From positions 1 through 63,250 of the forward strand of contig JAUNOP010000010.1 in NCBI GenBank assembly GCA_030537135.1: a stretch of 63,250 nt of DNA, read 5' to 3'. This document shows, one piece after another, positions 1-13,215 of this stretch (its first letter is position 1; the number at the start of each line of letters is the position of its first letter). This DNA is from Eubacteriales bacterium (lineage in GTDB: Bacteria > Bacillota > Clostridia > Lachnospirales > Lachnospiraceae). The notes under the pieces were generated by a model. The model was not told the DNA's origin, made no database searches, and was given only the letters and a program-made list of their open reading frames with translations. A program made the translations under genes and the position numbers.

Positions 1-9
1 ATAAGATTG

Positions 10-127
10 TAGAATAGAAAAATGCAACAAATGACAAAAATCTATTCTAAAGAGTATCTGATATATTGATTTTTGAAGTCTATCTGGATATAATAGAATA
101 GAAAAGTGCAACATGTTGCAAAAATCT
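10..127. repeat. two imperfect 34-bp direct repeats upstream of the ATPase
   Basis: Copies lie at 10-43 and 94-127, both starting TAGAATAGAAAA/G and ending CAAAAATCT, with five mismatches by eye. The second copy carries a perfect 14-bp palindrome, TGCAACATGTTGCA (107-120), which the first copy has lost. The arrangement suggests tandem regulator-binding sites around the promoter of the ATPase gene. Confidence 0.6.
66..94 (+). promoter_or_regulatory. sigma-A-like promoter of the AAA/DUF4143 ATPase
   Basis: TTGATT at 66-71 and TATAAT at 89-94 are separated by 17 bp. The 14-bp palindrome at 107-120 falls just past the expected start site, where a bound repressor would block transcription. The gene has a strong AAGGAGG before its ATG at 147. 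Confidence 0.55.
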
Positions 128-146
128 TTCGCAAGGAGGTTTTGAT

Positions 147-1442
147 ATGGAGATTCGCAGAGATTTTTATTTGGATAAGTTGATAAAAAGAAAAAACAAT
201 GGACTGATTAAGGTAATTACCGGTATTCGCAGATGTGGCAAATCCTATTTACTGAATAATCTGTTTTATCATCACTTATTGGAAAGTGGAGTTGATGCTG
301 ACCATATTATCCGTTTTGCATTTGATTCAGCAGATGACCTTTATCTCATTGGAGAAAGTCTGATTCAGATTGAAAAGGAAAAGCGTGGAGTTGACCCCGA
401 AAAGTTCATGGCATATATCCGTTCCAAAGTCGTAGGCGAAGGAATGTATTATCTGCTACTTGATGAAATTCAGATGTTGGATTGTTTTGAAGCTGTTCTG
501 AACGGTTATCTTCGCAAAGATAATATGGATGTATTTGTGACTGGAAGTAACGCAAAACTTTTGTCCAAAGATATAGCTACTGAGTTCGCCGGTCGTGGTG
601 ACGAGGTTCATATGTATCCCCTGAGCTTTGCCGAGTTTATGACCATTTATAACGGTGATAAGTACATGGGATTATCTGAATATATGCTGTATGGAGGTAT
701 CCCTCTGGTTGTTCTTCGTGAGGGAGCAAACGAGAAGGCAGTTGTATTACAGAATCTGTTCAATGAGATTTATCTTCGAGATATTACCAAGCGTAACCGA
801 GTGAAGAACATTGGAGAACTGGAAGATCTATTGAATATTCTTTCCTCTGCCATTGGTTCGCTAACCAATCCGGAAAAATTGAAGAATACTTTCAAGACGG
901 TAAAGAAATCCAGAATCACTTCCGCTACCATTAAGAAATATCTGGATTATTTTGAGGATTCATTCTTGATTGAATCAGCACAAAGATATGACATTAAAGG
1001 AAAGGCATATATCGAAACTCCAAAGAAATATTATTTTTCCGATCTTGGACTTCGCAATGCCAGAATCAATTTCCGTCAGTTCGAGCAAACACATTCTATG
1101 GAGAATGTAATTTACAACGAACTTCGTATGCGTGGCTACAGCGTGGATGTGGGTGTAATACCGATTGCAGAAAGAGATCAAGAAGGTAAGGTTATTCGTA
1201 AACAACTTGAAGTTGATTTTATATGTAATCTTGGCTCGTCCAGATACTATATCCAGTCTGCGTACTCGCTGCCAGATGAAGCAAAGCGTACTCAGGAAAT
1301 CAGACCGTTCAGAAAGATTGATGATTCTTTCAAGAAAATCGTTGTTACCAAAGACATCGTTCAGCCACACTATGATGAGTATGGTATATTTACTGTGAAC
1401 ATTTATGACTTCCTCCTTGGTCCGCAAATTCTTGAAAAATAA
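147..1442 (+). CDS. AAA ATPase with DUF4143 C-terminal domain
   Basis: A 431-residue protein of the AAA_14/DUF4143 family. The P-loop is GIRRCGKS (residues 26-33) and the Walker B-like stretch is YLLLDEIQML (about 101-110), followed by a TGSNAKLLS sensor-like segment. The C-terminal half matches the DUF4143 pattern, with a late EVDFI motif of the kind found in nuclease-like folds. The family is common in Firmicutes, Bacteroidetes and archaea; its function is poorly defined. RBS AAGGAGG lies 8-9 bases before the ATG. It is the first gene visible inside the element and its own palindrome-bearing promoter suggests separate control. Confidence 0.85.
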   Translation: MEIRRDFYLDKLIKRKNNGLIKVITGIRRCGKSYLLNNLFYHHLLESGVDADHIIRFAFDSADDLYLIGESLIQIEKEKRGVDPEKFMAYIRSKVVGEGMYYLLLDEIQMLDCFEAVLNGYLRKDNMDVFVTGSNAKLLSKDIATEFAGRGDEVHMYPLSFAEFMTIYNGDKYMGLSEYMLYGGIPLVVLREGANEKAVVLQNLFNEIYLRDITKRNRVKNIGELEDLLNILSSAIGSLTNPEKLKNTFKTVKKSRITSATIKKYLDYFEDSFLIESAQRYDIKGKAYIETPKKYYFSDLGLRNARINFRQFEQTHSMENVIYNELRMRGYSVDVGVIPIAERDQEGKVIRKQLEVDFICNLGSSRYYIQSAYSLPDEAKRTQEIRPFRKIDDSFKKIVVTKDIVQPHYDEYGIFTVNIYDFLLGPQILEK

Positions 1443-1541
1443 ACAATGTAAACTCATGTTGCGGAGATGTAAAGCTGATGTGGTGGAGTTCTATGGTAGT
1501 ATTAAGTACAATGAAATCACAAAAGCAAAGGAGGTTTTCAA

Positions 1542-2180
1542 ATGAAGCTATCAGATAAAATTATCGGATTAAGGAAATCTAATGGAATGTCGCAGGAAGA
1601 TTTGGCTGAAAAGCTGAATGTATCACGACAAGCTATTTCTCGTTGGGAATCGGGTACTGCGATGCCTGATGCAAGCAACATTCTTCAACTCAGTAAGCTG
1701 TTCGGTGTCACCACAGATTACTTACTGAATGATGATTACCAGAGCGGCAATGACCTGCCAAAGGTAAAAGAAGTACAAAACGATAATCTTGGGCAGATTA
1801 TGATCTATCTGGTCACACTCGAAGTCATGGTGCTTTTGATGCAGTTTATAACAACGGTTATTCTACAAAATGTGTTCTTTGGCTTTTTGAGTTTTATACC
1901 ATTTGTTGCAGCTATTGGTGGTTTTGAATACGCATACCAAAAGAAAGCATCCAATGCAACAGAAAAAACAAAGAACTTCCGCAGAAAGTTTTACAAAATT
2001 TCTGCTTGGTTGGGACTTTATTTCCCGATTAGATTTATCGTAAGCGTTGCGGTAAGATTTTATCCTCGTCCATATTATACTTTAGTGTTAGAGGTTATTA
2101 TTTTAGTAATCTATATTGCGGCGGCAACTTGTGTTAATCTTTCAATAGACAAAAGCTATTTGCCAAAAGAAGAAAACTAA
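1542..2180 (+). CDS. Xre-family regulator with membrane domain
   Basis: A 212-residue protein. Residues 1-65 form a Cro/CI-type helix-turn-helix, with SQEDLAEKLNVSRQAISRWE as the recognition region, and the C-terminal half has about four hydrophobic segments (roughly 88-105, 108-125, 150-170, 180-200). DNA-binding proteins with this layout are common in Firmicutes and are thought to sense envelope signals, though ligands are mostly unknown. RBS AAAGGAGG precedes the ATG. A strong terminator follows, so it ends the ATPase transcription unit. It could bind the repeats near 10-127, but nothing in the sequence proves that. Confidence 0.85.
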   Translation: MKLSDKIIGLRKSNGMSQEDLAEKLNVSRQAISRWESGTAMPDASNILQLSKLFGVTTDYLLNDDYQSGNDLPKVKEVQNDNLGQIMIYLVTLEVMVLLMQFITTVILQNVFFGFLSFIPFVAAIGGFEYAYQKKASNATEKTKNFRRKFYKISAWLGLYFPIRFIVSVAVRFYPRPYYTLVLEVIILVIYIAAATCVNLSIDKSYLPKEEN

Positions 2181-2192
2181 AGAGATTTTTAC

Positions 2193-2234
2193 AGCAGTCA
2201 TGCACTCCGGTGTGTGACTGCTTTTCTTTTTCGC
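2193..2234 (+). terminator. rho-independent terminator after the Xre-type gene
   Basis: AGCAGTCA (2193-2200) pairs with TGACTGCT (2215-2222); inner bases extend the stem around a TCCG loop, and a T-rich run (TTTTCTTTTT) follows. It separates the ATPase/regulator unit from the partition and replication unit. Confidence 0.8.
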
Positions 2235-2367
2235 TCAATTTCCACTCAATCCACGCTCAATGAGTTTTACACCCTCTTTCAGTAGAATGAAATTGCAATG
2301 AAAACAGCACCAAATTCTAAAATCCGGTGCCACTTCAAAGCAAATTTACTGAAAGGGGGCATTTTTT

Positions 2368-2406
2368 ATGAACACAAACAAGCACAAGGAGGTACAGAAC
2401 AAATGA
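2368..2406 (+). CDS. 12-codon leader ORF coupled to parM
   Basis: ATG at 2368, preceded by GAAAGGGGG, opens the peptide MNTNKHKEVQNK. Its TGA (2404-2406) overlaps the parM ATG (2403-2405) as ATGA, and the AAGGAGG of parM lies inside it. This geometry fits translational coupling. No attenuator-type run of one amino acid is present, so an attenuation role is not supported. Confidence 0.4.
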   Translation: MNTNKHKEVQNK

Positions 2407-3320
2407 AAGAACTGAGCAACATCAAAATTATTGCCGTGGATCATGGTTACGGCAACATCAAGACAGCTAACACAGTGACTCCTACCGGAGTGACCGCCTA
2501 TGAAACGGAGCCAATCTTCTCCGGTAACATTCTGGAGTATGGTGGCATCTATTACCGCATCGGGGAAGGTCACAAGGAATTTATCGCAGACGAGGCAATG
2601 GATGAGGACTATTACATTCTGACACTTATGGCGGTTGCCAGAGAACTGAATGTATATGGTATCCGTGAAGCCGATGTGCATTTGGCTGCCGGTCTGCCGC
2701 TGACCTGGATTCGCAAACAGCGTGAAGATTTCCGAAGCTATCTGCTACGTAACAAGGAAGTAGACTTCCGATTTAACGGCAAGGACTATCATATCAGTTT
2801 TGTTGGATGCAGTCTATTCCCACAGGGATACCCCGCCATTATCAATCAACTGGGAAATTTCAAGGGAACAAATCTTCTGACAGACGTTGGAAACGGCACA
2901 ATGAACATTCTGTATATCAACAACAAAAAGGCTGTGGAAAGCCGTTGTTGGACGGAAAAGTTCGGTGTCAATCAGTGCATGATTGCAGCCAAGAATGCGG
3001 TACTGGACAGCTTTGGCGTGAAAATCGAGGAATCTACCGTTGAACAGATACTTCGCTTCGGAACTGCTGACATCAGCAAGCCGTATTTAGACTGCATCAC
3101 TTCCGTTGCAAAGCGATATGTAGCTGATATTTTTGCTACGCTTCGACGCTATGAATACAATCCGGATTTGATGCGTCTGTTTATCATCGGTGGTGGCGGC
3201 TGTCTGGTCAAGCACTTCGGACAGTACGATGAAAATCGAGTGACTATTCTGGATGATATTTGTGCGACAGCCAAAGGTTATGAATACCTCGCCTTTGCCA
3301 GCCTTCGCAGGAAGGAGTAA
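2403..3320 (+). CDS. parM: ParM/StbA-like actin-type segregation ATPase
   Basis: A 305-residue actin-fold protein. The phosphate-1 loop is VDHGYGNIKTA near residue 12, the phosphate-2 region is LLTDVGNGTMN near 155, and the adenosine-loop glycines are FIIGGGGCLV near 260. ParM-type filaments push apart DNA copies bound by ParR and are usual on plasmids and on conjugative elements that pass through a replicating circle. The in-frame ORF opens at 2298, but ATG 2403 has AAGGAGG at the right distance and the conserved sequence starts there. The parR-like gene starts 3 bp downstream, so the two form one module. Confidence 0.85.
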   Translation: MKELSNIKIIAVDHGYGNIKTANTVTPTGVTAYETEPIFSGNILEYGGIYYRIGEGHKEFIADEAMDEDYYILTLMAVARELNVYGIREADVHLAAGLPLTWIRKQREDFRSYLLRNKEVDFRFNGKDYHISFVGCSLFPQGYPAIINQLGNFKGTNLLTDVGNGTMNILYINNKKAVESRCWTEKFGVNQCMIAAKNAVLDSFGVKIEESTVEQILRFGTADISKPYLDCITSVAKRYVADIFATLRRYEYNPDLMRLFIIGGGGCLVKHFGQYDENRVTILDDICATAKGYEYLAFASLRRKE

Positions 3321-3323
3321 GCC

Positions 3324-3695
3324 ATGAGCAAGAGTATCCGCAGCACTAATCTTCGATTCAATCTGGAAAAGGACACCCAGAAACAAGCATGGCAGTATCT
3401 TCAGACCATGGACAAGCAACATTTCAAATCCTACAGCAATGTAATAGCCGTAGCTCTGGTGGAGTATTTTGAACGCTACTACCGCAGTCAGGATGACCCT
3501 TACTTTGAAACCAGAGAACGTGAGGAGCGATTTGTAAATCAGATTATTTCCTCTGTAGAAAGTGCCATGGAGAAAACACTTCCGATATTTCTTGCAGGCT
3601 GTATGGCAGGACTTTCGCAAGTGCCTGTTGCAGCAGCTCCGGCTACACAGCAGGAACCGGATGCAGAACTGGATTGGGATTTCCTTGGAGAATAA
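3324..3695 (+). CDS. parR: ParR-like centromere-binding protein
   Basis: A 123-residue protein directly after parM. The N-terminal half, with NLRFNLEKDTQKQAWQYLQ and a following helix-rich stretch, resembles the ribbon-helix-helix DNA-binding fold of the small ParR-like proteins paired with ParM on Firmicutes elements. The C-terminus is alanine-rich and acidic, a plausible ParM-contact tail. The assignment depends mainly on gene order and size. I saw no clear parC iteron array, but did not exclude one. Confidence 0.65.
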   Translation: MSKSIRSTNLRFNLEKDTQKQAWQYLQTMDKQHFKSYSNVIAVALVEYFERYYRSQDDPYFETREREERFVNQIISSVESAMEKTLPIFLAGCMAGLSQVPVAAAPATQQEPDAELDWDFLGE

Positions 3696-3734
3696 GTTTT
3701 CTCCAAGCTGATCTCACAGGAGGGAGGTGAACAC

Positions 3735-4454
3735 ATGACACATTTTCTGACACAAGATAGCCTGATACCGCCCTATATGGCATTCCCAAGATTTTTACTG
3801 GACAAGGAAGGACTGAGCGAAACTGCAAAAATTCTCTATACAATTTTGCTCGACCGAACAAGGCTGTCACAGAAAAATGATGGATGGACGGATGAACAAG
3901 GTCATGTGTTCATTCTCTTTCCCATCAAGAATCTGGCAGAAGTCATGCACAAAAGCGAAATGTCCATTAAAACTGCGCTGACAGCTCTGGAAAAAGAATC
4001 TCTGATTGTACGAAAACGTCAGGGTGCCGGATTTCCGAACAGGATTTATGTAAGAGTGCCACCGGAAACTCTGGTAAAGACGGACAGAAATCTTTCCGTA
4101 AGACAGTCGGAAAACTGTCCTACTGATAGAAAGGAATCTGTCTCTGTAACAGACAGAAAACTGTTCAGTAGTAATAAAGAGAAGAGCAATATGAAAAGAA
4201 CAAATTTAGAGAGTAAGGATAATCGCACCGCCTATGGTTCCTATCAAAATGTATTCCTGACCACGGAAGAACTGTCAGCTTTGCAAAGTGAAGTCCCCCA
4301 CTATCAGGAATACATTGAAAAGCTGTCCAGATACATGGTATCCAGCGGAAAGCAATATGCCAGTCATGCCGCCACCATACGAAGCTGGGCACTACAAGAC
4401 CATCCTGCTCTTGTTAAACGAACCTATGAATGTAAGGAGGAAGAAAGCCTATGA
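3735..4454 (+). CDS. RepA_N-type replication initiator
   Basis: A 239-residue protein. The first 110 residues match the RepA_N winged-helix domain seen at the start of initiators of Gram-positive plasmids and conjugative transposons (LTQDSLIPPYMAFPRFLL, then LSETAKILYTILLDR, then MHKSEMSIKTALTALE). The middle is a low-complexity linker and the C-terminus is a short helical domain. RBS GGAGGGAGG precedes the ATG. The last 4 bases overlap the dnaC-like remnant, as in Tn916/Tn1549-type elements where initiator and helicase loader are coupled. It looks intact, so replication of an excised circle remains conceivable. Confidence 0.8.
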   Translation: MTHFLTQDSLIPPYMAFPRFLLDKEGLSETAKILYTILLDRTRLSQKNDGWTDEQGHVFILFPIKNLAEVMHKSEMSIKTALTALEKESLIVRKRQGAGFPNRIYVRVPPETLVKTDRNLSVRQSENCPTDRKESVSVTDRKLFSSNKEKSNMKRTNLESKDNRTAYGSYQNVFLTTEELSALQSEVPHYQEYIEKLSRYMVSSGKQYASHAATIRSWALQDHPALVKRTYECKEEESL

Positions 4455-4997
4455 AACCAATAAACAACGCTATGGACGATCTGTTTCAGCTAAGAGAGCT
4501 TGCGGAAGATGAATATCTGAATGAAGCTGACGGACTGATCTATTGTTCCAAAGGGAAGCGGCAAATCCTTTTTCGCCGGATGTATCGCAAATGCCCTGTT
4601 GGACAAGGGTATTCCGGTTCTGATGACCAACTTTTCCAGAATCCTGAATACGCTGACCGGAATGTATTCCGATGATAGAAACCAGTTCATTGACAGCTTT
4701 AACAAATACAGTCTGCTGATTATTGATGATTTGGGCATTGAGCGTAGCTCAGAATTTGCTCTGGAACAGGTGTTCAATGTGATTGACAGCCGTTACCGAA
4801 GCAAGAAACCGCTGATTGTGACCACCAATCTGACCTTGGATGAGTTGAAACATCCGAAAGATCTGGCAAGAGCCAGAATTTATGACAGAGTATTGGAGCG
4901 TTGTGTTCCTCTGAAAATCAACAATCAGAATATCCGAGAGCTGAACGCAGCCGCAAATATACAGGCAGCCCGAAAAATATTAAGTTCCGGTACTTAA
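4451..4997 (+). pseudogene. dnaC-like helicase loader with internal deletion and frameshift
   Basis: The first 32 codons (MKPINNAMDDLFQ... DGLIYC) are the usual N-terminus of element-encoded DnaC-like loaders. At about 4546-4555 the sequence jumps into the Walker A region in another frame (GSGKS, 4554-4568), and that frame stays open to 4997 with Walker B LLIIDDLGIE and sensor VTTNLTL. Intact relatives carry a cysteine-rich zinc segment and about 80 more residues between these parts. So about 240 bp were lost and the frame was broken. The C-terminal 132 codons could be read from ATG or TTG codons but would lack the P-loop. Confidence 0.8.
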
Positions 4998-5125
4998 TTT
5001 CACAGCCGATGGTGCTGAACAATTCACCTGTCAGCACACAGAAAGCCTAAAGATTGCAAAGCGAATTGTATCTGCACCATCTACACCGGATTACAGTACC
5101 ACCCCGATACCAGAAAGGAGATTTT

Positions 5126-5257
5126 ATGGCAAATAACAGACCTATGACTGAAGACGAAAAGAAATTATTGCAGGCACAGCACAGAATGGAAGCGATTGAA
5201 GCCCGCAACCGCCAGAAAGAACGAAAGGCAAGAACCAGACGATTGATTCAGTTGTGA
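5126..5257 (+). pseudogene. DUF3847 protein stub
   Basis: A 43-codon ORF with AAAGGAG before its ATG. It begins like DUF3847 proteins, small charged proteins coded just upstream of relaxases in Tn1549-like elements (MTEDEKKLLQAQHRMEAIEA, then a KERKARTRR stretch). Relatives are roughly 90-110 residues; this one stops soon after the basic segment, where the sequence joins the mobA fragment. A deletion removed its 3' end and the 5' end of mobA. The 128-bp gap before it (4998-5125) shows no gene. Confidence 0.65.
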
Positions 5258-5700
5258 GCCGTGGCGCAGGCCGTTCTGTAATAGCAGCCGCTGCTTATGC
5301 GTCCTGCCCCCGACTTTACAATGATTATGACGGGCTTACCCATGACTACACCAGAAAACAAGGATGCCTGTATAGCGAAGTCTTTCTTCCACAGTATGCA
5401 CCGGAAGAATGGAAAGACAGACAGCTACTTTGGGAAGCTGTTGAATCCGTAGAAAAAACAAAGGACAGCCGACTGGCGAGAGAACTTGTAGTTGCCCTGC
5501 CATCGGAGCTGTCCTTGGATGATTGGAAAAATATGTTGGAGCGTTTTGTCTGTGAGCAAGGTGTTGATCTTGGAATGTGTGCGGATGTGAATATCCATGA
5601 TCCCTACCCTCCGGGGCATAATCCACACAGCCATATACTTCCAGCTGTGCGGTCAGTCTGGCACATTCTTTCTCTAACATTTCTCTGCCTTTGTCCGTGA
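5254..5700 (+). pseudogene. mobA/mobL relaxase fragment
   Basis: About 128 codons match the N-terminal catalytic domain of MobA/MobL relaxases: SRGAGRSVIAAAAYAS, the tyrosine-bearing NDYDGLTHDYTRK, then KDSRLARELVVALP and the metal-binding HNPHSHIL. The extreme N-terminus is missing and everything after the histidine motif (about 5640) is lost; the last 20 codons are antisense padR sequence. Full relaxases of this class exceed 400 residues. The GTG at 5254 overlaps the stop of the DUF3847 stub. The element can no longer mobilize by its own relaxase. Confidence 0.85.
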
Positions 5701-5932
5701 GGATATAACTGCGACGTCTGCCCTCAACTTTTGTTTCCCGAATCATCTCAGCGTCCAGGAACTGTTCAAGCAGAGTGTATAGTGTACCGGAGCCAACATT
5801 GACCCGCCCTCTTGTCATGGCAGGAACTCTATCCAGAATATCCATGCCGTAACATTCTTCTTTCAGACAAAGCAAAGTGTAGAACATCTGCTCTGTCAGC
5901 GTTTGAAATTTTGCTCTTGCCACACGGTTCAC
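5336..5932 (-). CDS. PadR-family regulator with truncated, chimeric C-terminus
   Basis: Residues 1-95 form a PadR winged helix: FQTLTEQMFYTLLCL, GMDILDRV, then GSGTLYTLLEQFLDAEMI and YILTDKGREML. The gene's 3' end was cut at about 5640, so the frame runs on through the antisense of the mobA fragment for about 100 residues of no recognizable family. The DNA-binding part is complete but the dimerization tail is probably lost. Such regulators often sit by membrane-protein genes; none is left here. An operator-like palindrome in its promoter suggests autoregulation. Confidence 0.75.
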   Translation of the reverse strand: MNRVARAKFQTLTEQMFYTLLCLKEECYGMDILDRVPAMTRGRVNVGSGTLYTLLEQFLDAEMIRETKVEGRRRSYILTDKGREMLEKECARLTAQLEVYGCVDYAPEGRDHGYSHPHTFQDQHLAHRQNAPTYFSNHPRTAPMAGQLQVLSPVGCPLFFLRIQQLPKVAVCLSILPVHTVEERLRYTGILVFWCSHG

Positions 5933-5938
5933 CTCCCA

Positions 5939-5995
5939 TTCTCGAATATCAAGTATCTTCTGATTACATTATTTCTCGAATATCGAGAATGTCAA
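5939..5995 (-). promoter_or_regulatory. padR promoter with palindromic operator in the spacer
   Basis: On the minus strand, TTGACA (5990-5995) and AATAAT (5968-5973) are 16 bp apart. Almost the whole spacer is the palindrome TTCTCGA-TAT-TCGAGAA (5973-5989). A second, imperfect copy lies at 5939-5955, between the start site and the ATG at 5932. Two spaced sites across the promoter fit autorepression by the PadR protein. Confidence 0.65.
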
Positions 5996-6009
5996 GATAC
6001 GAGGGTATA

Positions 6010-6070
6010 GTTCATAAAAAATTAAATAAGCCACAGCTATCACTCCTCAGCAGAGCAATAGCCATGGCTT
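6010..6070 (-). terminator. terminator of tnpV
   Basis: On the minus strand, a 13-bp stem (6058-6070 with 6028-6040, two G-U pairs) around a 17-base loop is followed by ATTTAATTTTTT. It lies just past the tnpV stop. Confidence 0.75.
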
Positions 6071-6079
6071 TGATTCTTG

Positions 6080-6451
6080 TTAGCTATAAATCAATTCACT
6101 CAACACAATTTCTTCTGCCGCATTACGAATGTTATTGCAAGCACCTACCCATGCCATCTGGTCACGAGCCTTTAATGCTTCGTTTACACCCTGCCGTTCC
6201 TTCATTTGCAGGGTGAGAAGCTCCATTCTTTGATTAGCGGTATCATTTACTTCATTCAGATGCTTGACCAGTTCTCCATCAAGCAAAAGTGTGTTATACA
6301 GCACCTTGCGGTGTTCTTTCAGATGACGCAGACGCATTCTGCCGTATTTACCGTAATGTGGTTCTTCTTCCGAAAGTGCAAGATCAGGATAGTACATCCC
6401 ATCTGCACCCAATGTATAAGTTCCGCCCATTTCCTCGAATATTGATTTCAT
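6080..6451 (-). CDS. tnpV: TnpV-family transposon-encoded protein
   Basis: A 123-residue soluble protein matching TnpV of Tn4451/Tn4453-type mobilizable transposons and related gut-Firmicutes elements: MKSIFEEMGGTY at the start, GKYGRMRLRHLKEHRKVLY in the middle and NNIRNAAEEIVLSELIY at the end. Its biochemical role is unknown, but it is typically found beside a large serine recombinase, as here. RBS GGAGG lies before the ATG. It is divergent from the recombinase gene, with an 88-bp shared control region, and appears intact. Confidence 0.85.
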   Translation of the reverse strand: MKSIFEEMGGTYTLGADGMYYPDLALSEEEPHYGKYGRMRLRHLKEHRKVLYNTLLLDGELVKHLNEVNDTANQRMELLTLQMKERQGVNEALKARDQMAWVGACNNIRNAAEEIVLSELIYS

Positions 6452-6469
6452 AGAAATACCTCCAATCTG

Positions 6470-6518
6470 TTTACTTTATTGATACGCTATGTTATAATAC
6501 CGCAAGACACATAACATA
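6470..6518 (+). promoter_or_regulatory. recombinase promoter with overlapping dyad
   Basis: TTTACT (6470-6475) and TATAAT (6493-6498) are 17 bp apart, a housekeeping sigma-A pattern. The inverted repeat TATGTTAT (6488-6495) / ATAACATA (6511-6518), spacer 15 bp, covers the -10 and the expected start site, so it is a likely operator. I saw no obvious sigma-E-type promoter, which the B. subtilis skin recombinase gene is known to use. Confidence 0.6.
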
Positions 6519-6539
6519 TCAAGATAAGGAGGATATGAA

Positions 6540-8366
6540 ATGCGGAAAAATGAAGACATCATAGCTATCTATTCCCGTAAGTCTAAATTTACCGGAAAAG
6601 GTGAAAGTATCGGAAATCAGGTAGAACTATGTAAAGAATATGTTCGTGTGCATTTTGGTGATGCAGCTGTAGATAAAGTGGTCGTGTTTGAAGATGAGGG
6701 ATTTTCCGGTGGTAATCTGAATCGTCCGGACTTCAAGAAAATGATGGATGCTGCCAAGAAACGAAAGTTTAAGGCTATCATCGTTTATCGTCTTGACCGT
6801 ATCAGCCGTAATATCAGTGACTTTGCCAGTCTGATTGAGGAACTGGCTCGTCTGGATATTTCTTTTGTTTCTATTAAAGAGCAGTTCGATACAAGCACTC
6901 CTATGGGACGAGCTATGATGTATATCGCATCTGTTTTCTCACAGTTGGAGCGTGAAACCATTGCAGAGCGTATCCGTGACAATATGCATGAACTGGCAAA
7001 GACCGGTCGTTGGCTTGGTGGTACAACGCCTACTGGCTATGCTTCCGAAGCAGTCAAGAGCATTACTATTGATGGAAAGTCTAAGAAAGCTTGCAAGCTG
7101 AAATTGATTCCTGAAGAAGCTGATATTGTCCGTCTGATTTATGACTTATATATAGAAACGGACTCTCTGACATTGACGGAAGCGGCTTTGATAAAACAAA
7201 GAATTAAAACGAAGAACAATAATTACTTTACCCGTTTTTCCATCAAAGCTATTTTGCAGAATCCGGTTTATATGATTGCGGATGAAGATGCTTATAATTA
7301 CTTCATTCAGAACGACACAGACTTGTTCTCAGAGAAAGATGCGTTTGATAACAAGCATGGTATTATGGCCTACAATCGTACCGATCAGGAAAAAGGCAGA
7401 GCCACAAAGTATCTGCCTGCAAGCGAATGGATTGTATCTGTTGGCAAGCATCCGGGTTTGATTCCGGGCAAAGTATGGGGGCAGATACAAGAGTCTCTGG
7501 AACGCAATAAGTCCAAGTCTTTCAGAAAGCCACGCAGTAATGAAGCGCTTTTGACCGGATTGCTATTCTGTAGTTGTGGTGAACGTATGTATCCGAAAAT
7601 GAGCAAACGCAAAACTGCAGATGACAAGGTTATTTACACCTATGTCTGCAAGATGAAGGAACGCAGTCAGAGATCTGTATGCAACAGTAAGAATGCCAAC
7701 GGCAATACATTGGATATGGCTGTAGTCGAGCAGATTAAAATGCTTGCAGAGGACAAAGATACCTTCATTGCACAGTTGGAACAGAGCCGTAGATTCTATA
7801 CCGGCAATCGCATGGATTACGAACAGCGACTGGATGATATGCGAAAAGAAAAGGCAGAGACAGAGAAGAAAATCAATTCTCTGGTGGACTCCCTTGTAGA
7901 TATGGGAGACAGTCCTGCTAAGGCTCATGTAACCAAACGAATTGAACAGTTGAATGGAGAATACCAGTCTCTTGAACAGCGTATTCAGGAACTGGAAGGT
8001 CTGACTTCACAGCACGCTCTTAGTGATGTTGAGTTTGATCTGTTGCGTCAGTTGCTGACCATCTTCAAGGACGGCATTGACGAAATGACTGTTGAACAGA
8101 AACGTGCTGCTATTCGCACCATCGTGCGTAAGGTGGTTTGGGATGGTGTCAATGCCCATGTCATTCTGTTTGGTGTCAGGGATGATGAAATCGAGTATCC
8201 GGAAATAGCTGCCGTAGCATCTGGTAATACTGAGGACGATGACGAAACAGAGGAATTGGTGGACTTCTCCGACGTAGATTATGACGACGATATGGAGGAT
8301 GACCGCCTGGGAAAAACTGAACCCCTCAGTGCATCAAAAACGCATTGGGGGGAGGATAGCAAATGA
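6540..8366 (+). CDS. large serine recombinase, candidate sigK-element excisionase/integrase
   Basis: A 608-residue enzyme. The resolvase-type catalytic domain (about 1-150) has IAIYSRKS with the nucleophile serine near residue 12 and YRLDRISRN. A recombinase domain follows (to about 310), then a zinc ribbon with cysteine pairs (FCSCGE near 345 and later CKM/VCN), a coiled coil (about 405-475) and an acidic C-terminus. This is the architecture of phage integrases, TnpX and SpoIVCA. RBS AAGGAGG precedes the ATG. The stop codon TGA (8364-8366) is part of the AATGA junction core, so the gene ends exactly at the element boundary. By analogy it should cut there and rebuild sigK. Confidence 0.92.
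   Translation: MRKNEDIIAIYSRKSKFTGKGESIGNQVELCKEYVRVHFGDAAVDKVVVFEDEGFSGGNLNRPDFKKMMDAAKKRKFKAIIVYRLDRISRNISDFASLIEELARLDISFVSIKEQFDTSTPMGRAMMYIASVFSQLERETIAERIRDNMHELAKTGRWLGGTTPTGYASEAVKSITIDGKSKKACKLKLIPEEADIVRLIYDLYIETDSLTLTEAALIKQRIKTKNNNYFTRFSIKAILQNPVYMIADEDAYNYFIQNDTDLFSEKDAFDNKHGIMAYNRTDQEKGRATKYLPASEWIVSVGKHPGLIPGKVWGQIQESLERNKSKSFRKPRSNEALLTGLLFCSCGERMYPKMSKRKTADDKVIYTYVCKMKERSQRSVCNSKNANGNTLDMAVVEQIKMLAEDKDTFIAQLEQSRRFYTGNRMDYEQRLDDMRKEKAETEKKINSLVDSLVDMGDSPAKAHVTKRIEQLNGEYQSLEQRIQELEGLTSQHALSDVEFDLLRQLLTIFKDGIDEMTVEQKRAAIRTIVRKVVWDGVNAHVILFGVRDDEIEYPEIAAVASGNTEDDDETEELVDFSDVDYDDDMEDDRLGKTEPLSASKTHWGEDSK
8362..8366. other. attachment-site core AATGA at the sigK/element junction
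   Basis: AATGA lies where recombinase sequence gives way to sigK codons (GCA AAT GAA ATT CTC ATG CAT, encoding A-N-E-I-L-M-H). From memory, the B. subtilis skin crossover core is the same five bases at the equivalent Asn-Glu codons. The partner site should lie at the other end, left of the window. The exact crossover dinucleotide cannot be told from one junction. Confidence 0.7.
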
Positions 8367-8730
8367 AATTCTCATGCATATCCGCTCCAGGAGAAAATAC
8401 AGCCGTGAGGTGAGCCTGTATGAACCCATTGGAATGGATAAAGAGGGAAATGAAATCAATCTCCTGGATATCATCGAAGCTCCTCTGATTGATGTTGTAG
8501 AGGATTATTCTGTACGTCAGGAAATTAAAAAGCTGCGCAGCCTCTTAAAGGAGCTTCCTGCCAGAGAGCTGCAGGTATTGACCATGCGGTACGGCCTGTG
8601 CGGGCATGAAGAGATGACGCAGAGGGAGATTGCTCATAAGCTGGGCATCAGTCGTTCCTATGTGTCAAGAATTGAAAAAAGTGCGCTCCAAAAGCTGGGC
8701 ACACTTTTTCTAAAGGCAAGTCACAGATAA
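8362..8730 (+). CDS. sigK: sigK 3' half (sporulation sigma-K, interrupted gene)
   Basis: The 122 codons from AAT at 8362 match the second half of sigma-K: NEILMHIR at the end of region 2, linker EVSLYEPIGMDKEGNEINLL, then regions 3-4 with TMRYGLCGHEEMTQREIAHK and the helix-turn-helix LGISRSYVSRIE. Region 2.1-2.4 for core and -10 binding is missing. DKEGNEI and SRSYVSRIEK point to sigma-K rather than sigma-E. No proper start or RBS belongs to it, so it is silent unless the element is removed. Sigma-K directs late mother-cell gene expression for coat and cortex. Confidence 0.88.
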   Translation, partial: NEILMHIRSRRKYSREVSLYEPIGMDKEGNEINLLDIIEAPLIDVVEDYSVRQEIKKLRSLLKELPARELQVLTMRYGLCGHEEMTQREIAHKLGISRSYVSRIEKSALQKLGTLFLKASHR

Positions 8731-11364: not shown

Positions 11365-13215
11365 TTAAGCCTCCATAATGATAGGAAGAATCATTGGATT
11401 TCTCTTTGTACGCTTCCAGATAAACTCTCCAAGCGAATCCTTTACTACTGTCTTGAGTTTGCCCCAGTCTGTAATTCTTCTGTCCAGACAGGACTGCAAA
11501 GCCTCCTCCACGATTTGCCGCGCCTCTCCCAGCAAATCCTCTGATTCTCTCACATAGACAAAGCCTCTGGAAACAATATCCGGTCCTGAGAGAATAACAT
11601 TGCTGTGACGCTCCAGAGTCATGACTATAATCATAATTCCATCCTCTGCCAGATGCTGGCGATCCCGAAGGACAATGTTTCCAACGTCTCCCACTCCCAA
11701 GCCGTCTACCAGAATTCCGCCTGTGTGTACCTTTCCTGTGACCTTGGCTTCCTGGTCTCCAAACTCCAAAACATCTCCTGATGAGAGAATGAAAATCCGT
11801 TCCTTTGGAATTCCAAGCTCCTCAGCCAGACAGGACTGCGCAACCAAATGGCGGTATTCTCCATGAACCGGAATCGCATACTGCGGTTTTACCAGAGAAT
11901 AAATCAGCTTCAGTTCCTCCTGACAGGCATGTCCCGATACATGAGCGTCCTGAAAAATCACCTTGGCTCCCTTCTGGCACAGCTCATTGATCACCTTTGA
12001 CACAGCCTTCTCATTTCCTGGAATCGGGTTGGAGCTGAAAATAATCGTATCATTCGGCTTGATAGTAATCTTTTTGTGGATATTGGCGGCCATACGGGAC
12101 AGAGCAGCCATAGACTCTCCCTGACTTCCTGTTGTGATCAGAACCATCTGCTCATCTGGATAGTTCTTTACCTGGTCAATGTCAATGAGGGTATTCTCAG
12201 GTATCTTGAGATAGCCAAGCTCCGCTGCTGTTGTCATGACATTCACCATGCTTCTGCCCTCCACAGCCACCTTTCTCCCAAACTTGTCTGCAGAATTAAT
12301 AATCTGCTGTACACGATCCACATTGGATGCAAAGGTTGCGATAATAATACGGGTATTTTTATGTTCACTGAACAAATTGTCAAAGACACGTCCCACGGTT
12401 CTCTCTGACATGGTAAAGCCCTTTCGCTCTGCATTGGTGCTGTCCGCCATCAGCGCAAGAACGCCCTTCTTTCCAATCTCTGCAAAACGCTGAAGGTCTA
12501 TGGCGTCTCCAAATACAGGAGTATAATCAACCTTAAAGTCTCCGGTATGCACGACAATTCCCGCCGGTGAATAGATAGCCAGAGCAGAGGCGTCCTGAAT
12601 GCTGTGGTTTGTCTTAATAAATTCCACTGCAAAATCTCCGAGATTAATCACCTGTCCGTGGCGCACCTCTTTGAGCTTTGTAGTTTTCACCAGATTATGC
12701 TCCTTAAGCTTGTTGGTAATCAGGCCAATGGTAAGCTTTGTTGAATAAATCGGAACATTGACCTCCTTGAGTACATAGGGAAGCGCCCCGATATGATCCT
12801 CATGTCCGTGGGTGATAACAAAGCCCTTGACCTTTGAGATATTCTCCTTCAAATATGAGACGTCCGGAATGACAAGATCGATTCCAAGCATATCGTCCTC
12901 TGGAAAAGCCAGACCGCAGTCCACAACCACAATGCTTTCTTCATATTCAAAGGCTGTGATATTCATACCAATCTGCTCAAGTCCTCCAAGAGGGATAATT
13001 TTAAGTCCGCTCGAATTTTTCTTGACTTTTTTCCTCTGTACGCTCACAGAAGGCGGAAGGGATTCCCGAAAGCCATTCTGTGTCTTTCTTGTAAAATTTC
13101 TGTTGTTATGCCTTTGATAAGGCTTTTTCTTCTGGAAGCCGCCATCCATGTCCGGCCCTCCTGTGTCTGTACCTCCTGTGTTTTCCCAATTTTCGTTGTT
13201 GTAGTCTCTCTTCAA
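11365..13215 (-). CDS. rnj: ribonuclease J
   Basis: A 616-residue metallo-beta-lactamase/beta-CASP ribonuclease. The zinc motif HGHEDHIGALPYVL is near residue 140, followed by HTGDFKVDYTP, MADSTNAERKGFT and the beta-CASP signature region with IPVHGEYRH. RNase J is the 5'-3' exonuclease and endonuclease of Firmicutes mRNA turnover. It is about 60 residues longer than B. subtilis RNJA because of a basic, Asn/Gly-rich N-terminal tail, possibly an RNA-binding or degradosome extension. The start is TTG at 13215, supported by GGAGGTG seven bases upstream. Confidence 0.93.
   Translation of the reverse strand: MKRDYNNENWENTGGTDTGGPDMDGGFQKKKPYQRHNNRNFTRKTQNGFRESLPPSVSVQRKKVKKNSSGLKIIPLGGLEQIGMNITAFEYEESIVVVDCGLAFPEDDMLGIDLVIPDVSYLKENISKVKGFVITHGHEDHIGALPYVLKEVNVPIYSTKLTIGLITNKLKEHNLVKTTKLKEVRHGQVINLGDFAVEFIKTNHSIQDASALAIYSPAGIVVHTGDFKVDYTPVFGDAIDLQRFAEIGKKGVLALMADSTNAERKGFTMSERTVGRVFDNLFSEHKNTRIIIATFASNVDRVQQIINSADKFGRKVAVEGRSMVNVMTTAAELGYLKIPENTLIDIDQVKNYPDEQMVLITTGSQGESMAALSRMAANIHKKITIKPNDTIIFSSNPIPGNEKAVSKVINELCQKGAKVIFQDAHVSGHACQEELKLIYSLVKPQYAIPVHGEYRHLVAQSCLAEELGIPKERIFILSSGDVLEFGDQEAKVTGKVHTGGILVDGLGVGDVGNIVLRDRQHLAEDGIMIIVMTLERHSNVILSGPDIVSRGFVYVRESEDLLGEARQIVEEALQSCLDRRITDWGKLKTVVKDSLGEFIWKRTKRNPMILPIIMEA

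Follow-up and report, generated by a model that had tools for sequence, protein, structure and literature searches.

At the left end of a 63,250-nucleotide stretch of a Lachnospiraceae genome (Eubacteriales bacterium, contig JAUNOP010000010.1, here contig C11), a gene for a large serine recombinase runs directly into the 3' half of sigK, the gene for sigma-K. The locus raises the question of whether an element interrupts sigK, what kind of element it is, and how the gene could be made whole again. The window, by which we mean that whole stretch, starts at base 1 of C11, and the genome to which it belongs is approximately 91% complete with an estimated contamination of 0.11%. Our reading, to which we assign a probability of roughly 0.75, is that a partly deleted integrative mobilizable element sits in sigK at codon Asn-89, that it is excised during sporulation by its recombinase together with a small second factor, and that attP, the attachment site of its circular form, lies inside the recombinase gene.

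The sigK gene is split at codon Asn-89

The features that bear directly on this reading are as follows.

6540 to 8366, plus strand: large serine recombinase, 608 aa when integrated and a predicted 814 aa in the circle
8337 to 8388, no strand: attR, with the crossover dinucleotide AA at 8362-8363
8362 to 8730, plus strand: sigK 3' half from codon Asn-89, identified by the joined frame and the SigK profile
Contig C96, 3779-4044, outside the window: sigK 5' half, found by a sigma region 2 search of the same genome
Contig C96, 4902-4690, minus strand: small frame of about 71 aa near attL, read from an Ile codon

The original prediction, made from the window alone, held that the recombinase gene ends where the sigK 3' half begins. 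This is what we find, since the recombinase stop codon TGA (8364-8366) is made of sigK bases and sigK continues to 8730. A sigK 5' half had also been predicted at the far end of the element. It was found on contig C96, which carries a truncated sigma gene (LKTFQKPL...AARCIEN) that departs from sigK at the same codon; when C96 and C11 are joined at their common AAATG, the result is an open SigK frame of 210 codons. The joined protein scores 299.2 bits with the TIGR02846 SigK model (cut-off 298.65) and 214.4 bits with the SigE model. Its match starts at profile positions 25-27, which we take to mean that a pro-sequence of the Bacillus subtilis type is seemingly absent. A SigK search of this 91%-complete genome found no second intact sigK, as the original prediction requires, and the next match is 46% identical and SigE-like. 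SpoIVA was found in the same genome. As in a skin-type element, then, the element lies within sigK, the two halves make one open gene, no intact copy was found elsewhere, and a serine recombinase is present with matching attachment sites. Because sigK is cut, it follows that sigma-K would depend on DNA rearrangement in this organism, with excision being predicted from the cut gene.

The element reaches past positions 1-8366, with at least 2.0 kb more on C96. We had considered C96 and C11 as direct neighbours and dropped this arrangement because their ends do not overlap; the stretch between the two contigs is missing. An error of binning or assembly that brought together halves from different genomes would be in keeping with two separate, non-overlapping contigs, yet we regard it as very improbable: the ends meet at the same dinucleotide, the element arms are complementary, the genome has one 5' half and one 3' half with no intact copy found, its estimated contamination is very low, and in two genus mates a single contig shows sigK split at this same codon.

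Attachment sites

The cut in sigK falls at the AA of the Asn-89 codon. The original prediction placed AATGA at the Asn-Glu join, and this is correct for the right junction; the left junction reads AATGC, so the sequence common to both ends is AAATG. The original prediction presumes AATGA to be the core of the B. subtilis skin element. Joining the two element ends gives a predicted circle junction, attP, of AAACGCATTGGGGGGAGGATAGCA-AA-TGCTATCCTCTCACAGATGCGTTT, which is symmetric and centred on AA. For comparison we used 22 two-ended elements (this one, 13 others and a further eight) with both ends in hand. Across these 22 elements, the attP arms are complementary at 14-21 of 25 positions about the AA, versus 2-9 of 25 for the rejoined host site. 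Judged from sequence, the attachment sites have the geometry of large serine integrase sites. A repeat search found no inverted repeats in either junction stretch; each stretch carries only one attP arm.

Two loci (L061 and L067) have the host codon AAC at attR and AAT at attL, and the crossover therefore precedes the third base of the Asn codon. In another locus (L121, 11690-12060), the element lies reversed within sigK and the core is TT rather than AA, which is the expectation if orientation is set by the central dinucleotide. Of 391 genomes sampled from the class, eight have the attR pattern with one mismatch allowed, and this genome is one of them; only some of the eight were examined for sigK.

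A predicted attP within the recombinase gene

The recombinase has Resolvase, Recombinase and Zn-ribbon domains. Its integrated frame ends GAT AGC AAA TGA, while the predicted circle reads GAT AGC AAA TGC TAT CCT. Integration would then swap a Cys codon of the recombinase for a sigK-derived stop and strand a C-terminal extension, which carries two helix-turn-helix (HTH) domains, at attL. We infer that the circle codes for a recombinase of about 814 aa with a double-HTH C-terminus and has attP within the gene; excision should restore both sigK and the recombinase gene.

In eight of the 22 two-ended elements (this one and those of Holdemania, Tyzzerella, C. fessum, Sellimonas, Lachnoclostridium An169, genome G091 and Gemmiger), the extension is open for 204-216 codons in the recombinase frame, as against 16-116 codons in the other two frames. 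The predicted fusion is 813-815 aa long in seven of these elements and 802 aa in one. The ratio of nonsynonymous to synonymous substitution rates (dN/dS) of the extension is 0.03-0.09 for the ten pairwise comparisons of five elements (this one, L057 and those of Holdemania, Tyzzerella and C. fessum); over the first 75 extension codons of the same pairs it is 0.06-0.28; in distant pairs, dS of the extension is often saturated. The recombinase itself keeps YSRKS in all 22 elements, and its dN/dS is 0.03-0.11 among six small elements and this one.

We considered whether the HTH frame at attL could instead be a separate gene, its common frame across attP being a leftover or chance. An ATG does stand at codon 9 after the core in the group to which this element belongs, and no uninterrupted recombinase-HTH gene or attP was found in IMG/VR, the PLSDB plasmids or 397 family genomes. 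This absence fits a short-lived circle, yet the fusion stays a prediction. Against a separate gene, the same frame and a total length of 802-815 aa recur in eight elements, and protein-like conservation starts at the core itself. Moreover, the first start-like codon after the core is codon 36 in Sellimonas and G091 (19 in An169 and 9 in others), and the same join is seen in relatives that have other targets. On this evidence we consider a separate HTH gene doubtful and favour a recombinase whose C-terminus is exchanged upon integration.

Relatives with other targets

Two relatives aimed at other targets (G227 and G272) show the same in-frame recombinase-HTH join. The G227 recombinase is 45% identical to the one in the window, and its element splits a csp-type germination protease gene. 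The csp halves (L177, G227:C69, 651-1541, and L163, G227:C176, 2094-3041) join to an open 581-aa gene whose protein has CspB_prodomain and Peptidase_S8 domains, and the circle frame is at least 762 aa, its start not being in hand. The G272 recombinase (L175, G272:C148) is 56% identical and lies beside tRNA-Asn and an epimerase-like gene, with a circle frame of 716 aa.

Two IMG/VR contigs of related samples (L172 and L173, near 6001) have the left end of such an element, including the HTH frame, directly after a phage terminase large subunit gene, which stands where sigK would. In locus L084 of genome G094 (11740-12100), the recombinase is followed by sequence other than sigK.

A horizontally moving family enters sigK

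Among 431 relatives of the recombinase, the best 80 were kept. A sigK 3' half follows the recombinase in 75 of these 80 loci, mostly immediately; L068, L071 and L125 are examples with extra sequence in between. Of the remaining five loci, two lie at contig ends (L076 and L091), one has other sequence (L084), one has a 5' half only, upstream (L116), and one is inverted (L121). The 3' half is open for at least 100 codons in 78 of 79 cases, a set that includes this window, L134, L135 and L137. The one exception, L137, lies at a contig end, where it starts past the core and has 98 codons. To judge by their equal length, L105 and L134 are apparently one contig. For every one of the 22 two-ended elements, the rejoined sigK is an open gene of 205-224 aa. 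A SigK search in 40 of the 80 carrier genomes found a 5' half in at least 32 of them among the matches listed. The joined genes of eight relatives all score higher with SigK than with SigE (for Gemmiger, no SigE match fell within the limit set); seven pass the cut-off of NF004471 and one that of TIGR02846, while the Gemmiger gene passes neither.

Relatives with an intact sigK and no element had been anticipated, and among 64 genomes of the same genus, a SigK search found an unsplit sigK in 42, three of which have one internal stop. It is split in three (G000, G026 and G038) and breaks off at contig ends in G052; two genomes have a weaker match only, and 16 have no match. G026 and G038 carry recombinases with 70% and 54% identity to this one, so the sigK site has been filled more than once within the genus. 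The Holdemania recombinase is 96.6% identical to this one while its SigK is 52.2% identical, which argues for horizontal spread; in the genus mate with L135, the corresponding values are 54.0% and 75.1%. The recombinase, attachment sites and cargo are those of a family that passes horizontally between hosts and inserts in sigK of Holdemania and of many Clostridia. The original prediction of a single capture and taming, with a separate origin of programmed excision, is not supported as worded, and decay within a mobile family that targets sigK is the better reading.

This spread suits another explanation, namely that a site-specific element merely enters at sigK, that its carriers no longer need sigma-K, and that excision serves transfer only. 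The element clearly moves between hosts, some carriers belong to Faecalibacterium and Gemmiger, which we take to be non-spore-forming genera, and G094 lacks sigK and sigE among the matches listed. Unused gene halves should decay, yet nearly all 3' halves are open (the other being a contig-end fragment), the joined sigK is open in every two-ended element, and SpoIVA is present in this genome. We therefore judge the explanation by entry site alone to be unlikely and retain a probable role for excision in sporulation.

Five Gemmiger and Faecalibacterium loci (L073, L075, L119, L124 and L130) have the recombinase before a sigK-like 3' half (38-46% identity). Mediterraneibacter glycyrrhizinilyticus An427 (L079/G079) has an extra sigK 3' piece with internal stops (G079:C206:375-746) besides its split gene.

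Element cargo and deletions

The part of the element in the window carries the following further features.

147 to 1442, plus strand: AAA_14/DUF4143 ATPase, also retained in several small relatives
1542 to 2180, plus strand: HTH regulator
2403 to 3320, plus strand: ParM-like actin
3324 to 3695, plus strand: ParR-like frame, named from position, with no family above cut-off
3735 to 4454, plus strand: RepA_N replication initiator
4599 to 4997, plus strand: DnaC-like ATPase, C-terminal 132 aa (280 aa in Holdemania), with about 296 bp lost before it
5254 to 5640, plus strand: MobA relaxase, N-terminal piece (577 aa in the Holdemania element)
5641 to 5932, minus strand: PadR-type regulator, shortened at the deletion junction near 5640
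6083 to 6451, minus strand: TnpV

This agrees with the original description of a skin-like sigK cut by an element whose mobilizable-element cargo has suffered deletions: ParM, RepA_N, the MobA and DnaC pieces and TnpV stand as named, and ParR alone is assigned by position. Relative to L056 and L060, about 296 bp within dnaC and about 4.5-4.7 kb from inside mobA onward are absent from the window; this element is therefore a deletion derivative. An integrative mobilizable element is recognised by an integrase together with a relaxase, and here MobA is an N-terminal piece only. The set ParM-ParR-RepA_N-DnaC-MobA is common to this element and the 16-27 kb elements of Holdemania, Tyzzerella, C. fessum, Sellimonas, Lachnoclostridium An169 and G091, except that a ParM match was not seen in the Sellimonas element. 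Of the 21 two-ended elements besides this one, six show a match to MobA, which is 577 aa long in Holdemania and 581 aa in Tyzzerella; this element therefore derives from an integrative mobilizable element. Among the element proteins searched, which do not include the missing middle of the element, there were no phage structural genes.

Elements with a relaxase measure 16-27 kb, and the smallest form is 3.6 kb. The small elements keep the recombinase, the small frame, the attachment sites and an open sigK and have no MobA match. This retained set is the expected outcome of taming, and the small elements look like the tamed end of a series.

A candidate directionality factor

Relatives of the small frame near attL occur in all 22 two-ended elements, although the L135 copy is only 34% identical; in G095 and L135, the frame lies closer to the recombinase. 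It matches no Pfam, PHROG or NCBIfam family, and a search of its profile against PDB sequences gave a best E value of 0.16 and nothing convincing. By analogy with CD1234, a 72-aa protein of Clostridioides difficile, it is our best candidate for the directionality factor. The HTH protein at attL was dropped from this role, being shortened or lost in 14 of the 22 elements while the small minus-strand frame is present in all of them.

Upstream of the small frame, the pattern NNATA-N16-18-CATANANT occurs in 18 of 30 distinct regions, whereas dinucleotide shuffles gave a mean of 0.1 and a maximum of 2 in 200 runs. The sigma-E promoter of spoIIID in C. difficile reads ATA-N16-CATATATA (PMC3789822). 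In this genome, CATAAACT stands about 30 bp before the start of sigK. A conserved GGACAACTT block lies between two promoter-like boxes upstream of the small frame, for example in L015 (4902-4980, minus strand). It resembles a SpoIIID site; a search of this genome found no SpoIIID.

The codon about 8 bases behind GGAGG is ATC or ATT in 24 of 30 distinct small-frame sequences, ATG in four, GTG in one and another codon in one (L135). Because an Ile, Met or Val codon recurs at this distance, it was preferred as the start over a GTG; in L108, L114, L120 and L126, the start was shifted by hand to a nearby Ile codon. The GTG start was dropped because a stop follows that GTG in L120 and the GTG is missing in L126. 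Starts at ATC or ATT would keep expression of the small frame low.

Proposed mechanism

In the mechanism that we propose, the 608-aa recombinase made from the chromosome would be kept from acting until the small protein is present in the mother cell, where a sigma-E-like promoter would drive the directionality factor near attL. Recombinase and small factor would then join attL to attR, releasing the element as a circle and restoring sigK; the same excision would generate the recombinase gene with its HTH end. It is the forespore that would retain the integrated copy, the mother cell being lost, and the element would therefore be inherited. For transfer, the circle must also arise outside sporulation, and the HTH form may act there in integration or control. 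The HTH C-terminus probably serves the free form in this way, because sigK is still open, and the small frame and catalytic part are retained, in most elements that have lost it.

Several observations weigh against this mechanism. The TIGR02846 cut-off is only barely passed by the joined SigK, whose halves lie on separate contigs with the middle of the element absent. Two of the 40 carriers searched (G086 and G103) also have a full-length SigK-like match of more than 50% identity among the matches listed, and G094, the home of L084, has neither sigK nor sigE among those listed by the SigK search. Our searches found no read or contig with the circle or a rejoined sigK in any carrier, and SpoIIID is missing from the matches in this genome. 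Fourteen of the 22 elements have an extension that is either shortened or cut off (162 codons in L057 and fewer in the rest); these elements are 3.6-15.2 kb long and have no MobA match, while all six other elements with a MobA match have it open. In the close trio of Sellimonas, An169 and G091, extension dN/dS is 0.33-0.81, a value based on very few changes. The small frame, a candidate directionality factor, is without a known family, and the promoter pattern was defined after inspecting the sequences, many of which are close relatives.

A broader proposal, which we hold at even odds, is that these elements form a reciprocal two-gene switch in a mobile-element family of gut Bacillota, with a self-splitting serine integrase aimed at spore genes, and that skin elements arise by decay of mobilizable elements. 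The circle would correspond to a whole sigK and a full-length recombinase-HTH protein, and the chromosomal state to a cut sigK and a truncated recombinase. The truncated enzyme, with a mother-cell factor started at AUC or AUU, would carry out excision, and the HTH form would belong to the free element. The targets would be sigK in most members and csp in one relative.

Comparison with known systems

Described skin elements are mostly phages or phage relics of single species, whereas the elements here form a non-phage family that occupies one sigK codon in many genera of gut commensals. Since they range from relaxase-bearing forms of 16-27 kb to forms of 3.6 kb, they offer a series in which to study how programmed excision arose. 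The analysis predicts that spore formation in carriers depends on DNA rearrangement. It also predicts a serine integrase that alters its own C-terminus on integration, a switch that we found described only for archaeal tyrosine integrases and phage repressors, and it offers a candidate directionality factor for serine-type mobilizable elements. Searches of an open-access library gave no report that we recognised of a mobilizable element specific for sigK or of a serine integrase whose attP is internal.

Serine-recombinase integrative mobilizable elements share with this one a relaxase and a serine recombinase, no transfer apparatus of their own in the frames seen, and an intragenic site; they differ in being described at sites other than sigK (PMC5704250, PMC12904643). 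A 2017 review states that no directionality factor is known for serine-type mobilizable elements, and sigK has 0 occurrences in it (PMC5704250).

Archaeal SSV-type suicidal integrases likewise have attP within the integrase gene, which is split on integration, as in the circle predicted here. They are tyrosine recombinases that lose the whole enzyme, whereas the serine recombinase here retains its catalytic part; a review terms self-splitting integrases exclusively archaeal (PMC8371274). In the integration-dependent immunity of mycobacteriophages, integration also shortens a protein, a host base making a Cys codon TGA. There it is the repressor that is split, the integrase is of the tyrosine type, and no directionality factor is evident (PMC9262239).

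The sigK prophages of Clostridium tetani, C. perfringens and Alicyclobacillus and the B. subtilis skin element also use sigK as their integration site, and precise excision restored sigK where this was tested (PMC5553647, PMC13141910). Those elements are phages or phage-like, whereas this one has plasmid-like replication, partition and mobilization genes. The B. subtilis skin core is given only as having five nucleotides (PMC13141910).

Another close parallel is the C. difficile skin element. There, too, sigK is cut, a large serine recombinase lies directly before the sigK 3' half, SigK has no pro-sequence, and a small second protein, the 72-aa CD1234, acts as a directionality factor under the control of sigma-E and SpoIIID; the small frame described here is likened to CD1234 by size and setting only. 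In contrast to the C. difficile element, the one described here has the backbone of a mobilizable element and a predicted attP inside its recombinase gene (PMC5025042).

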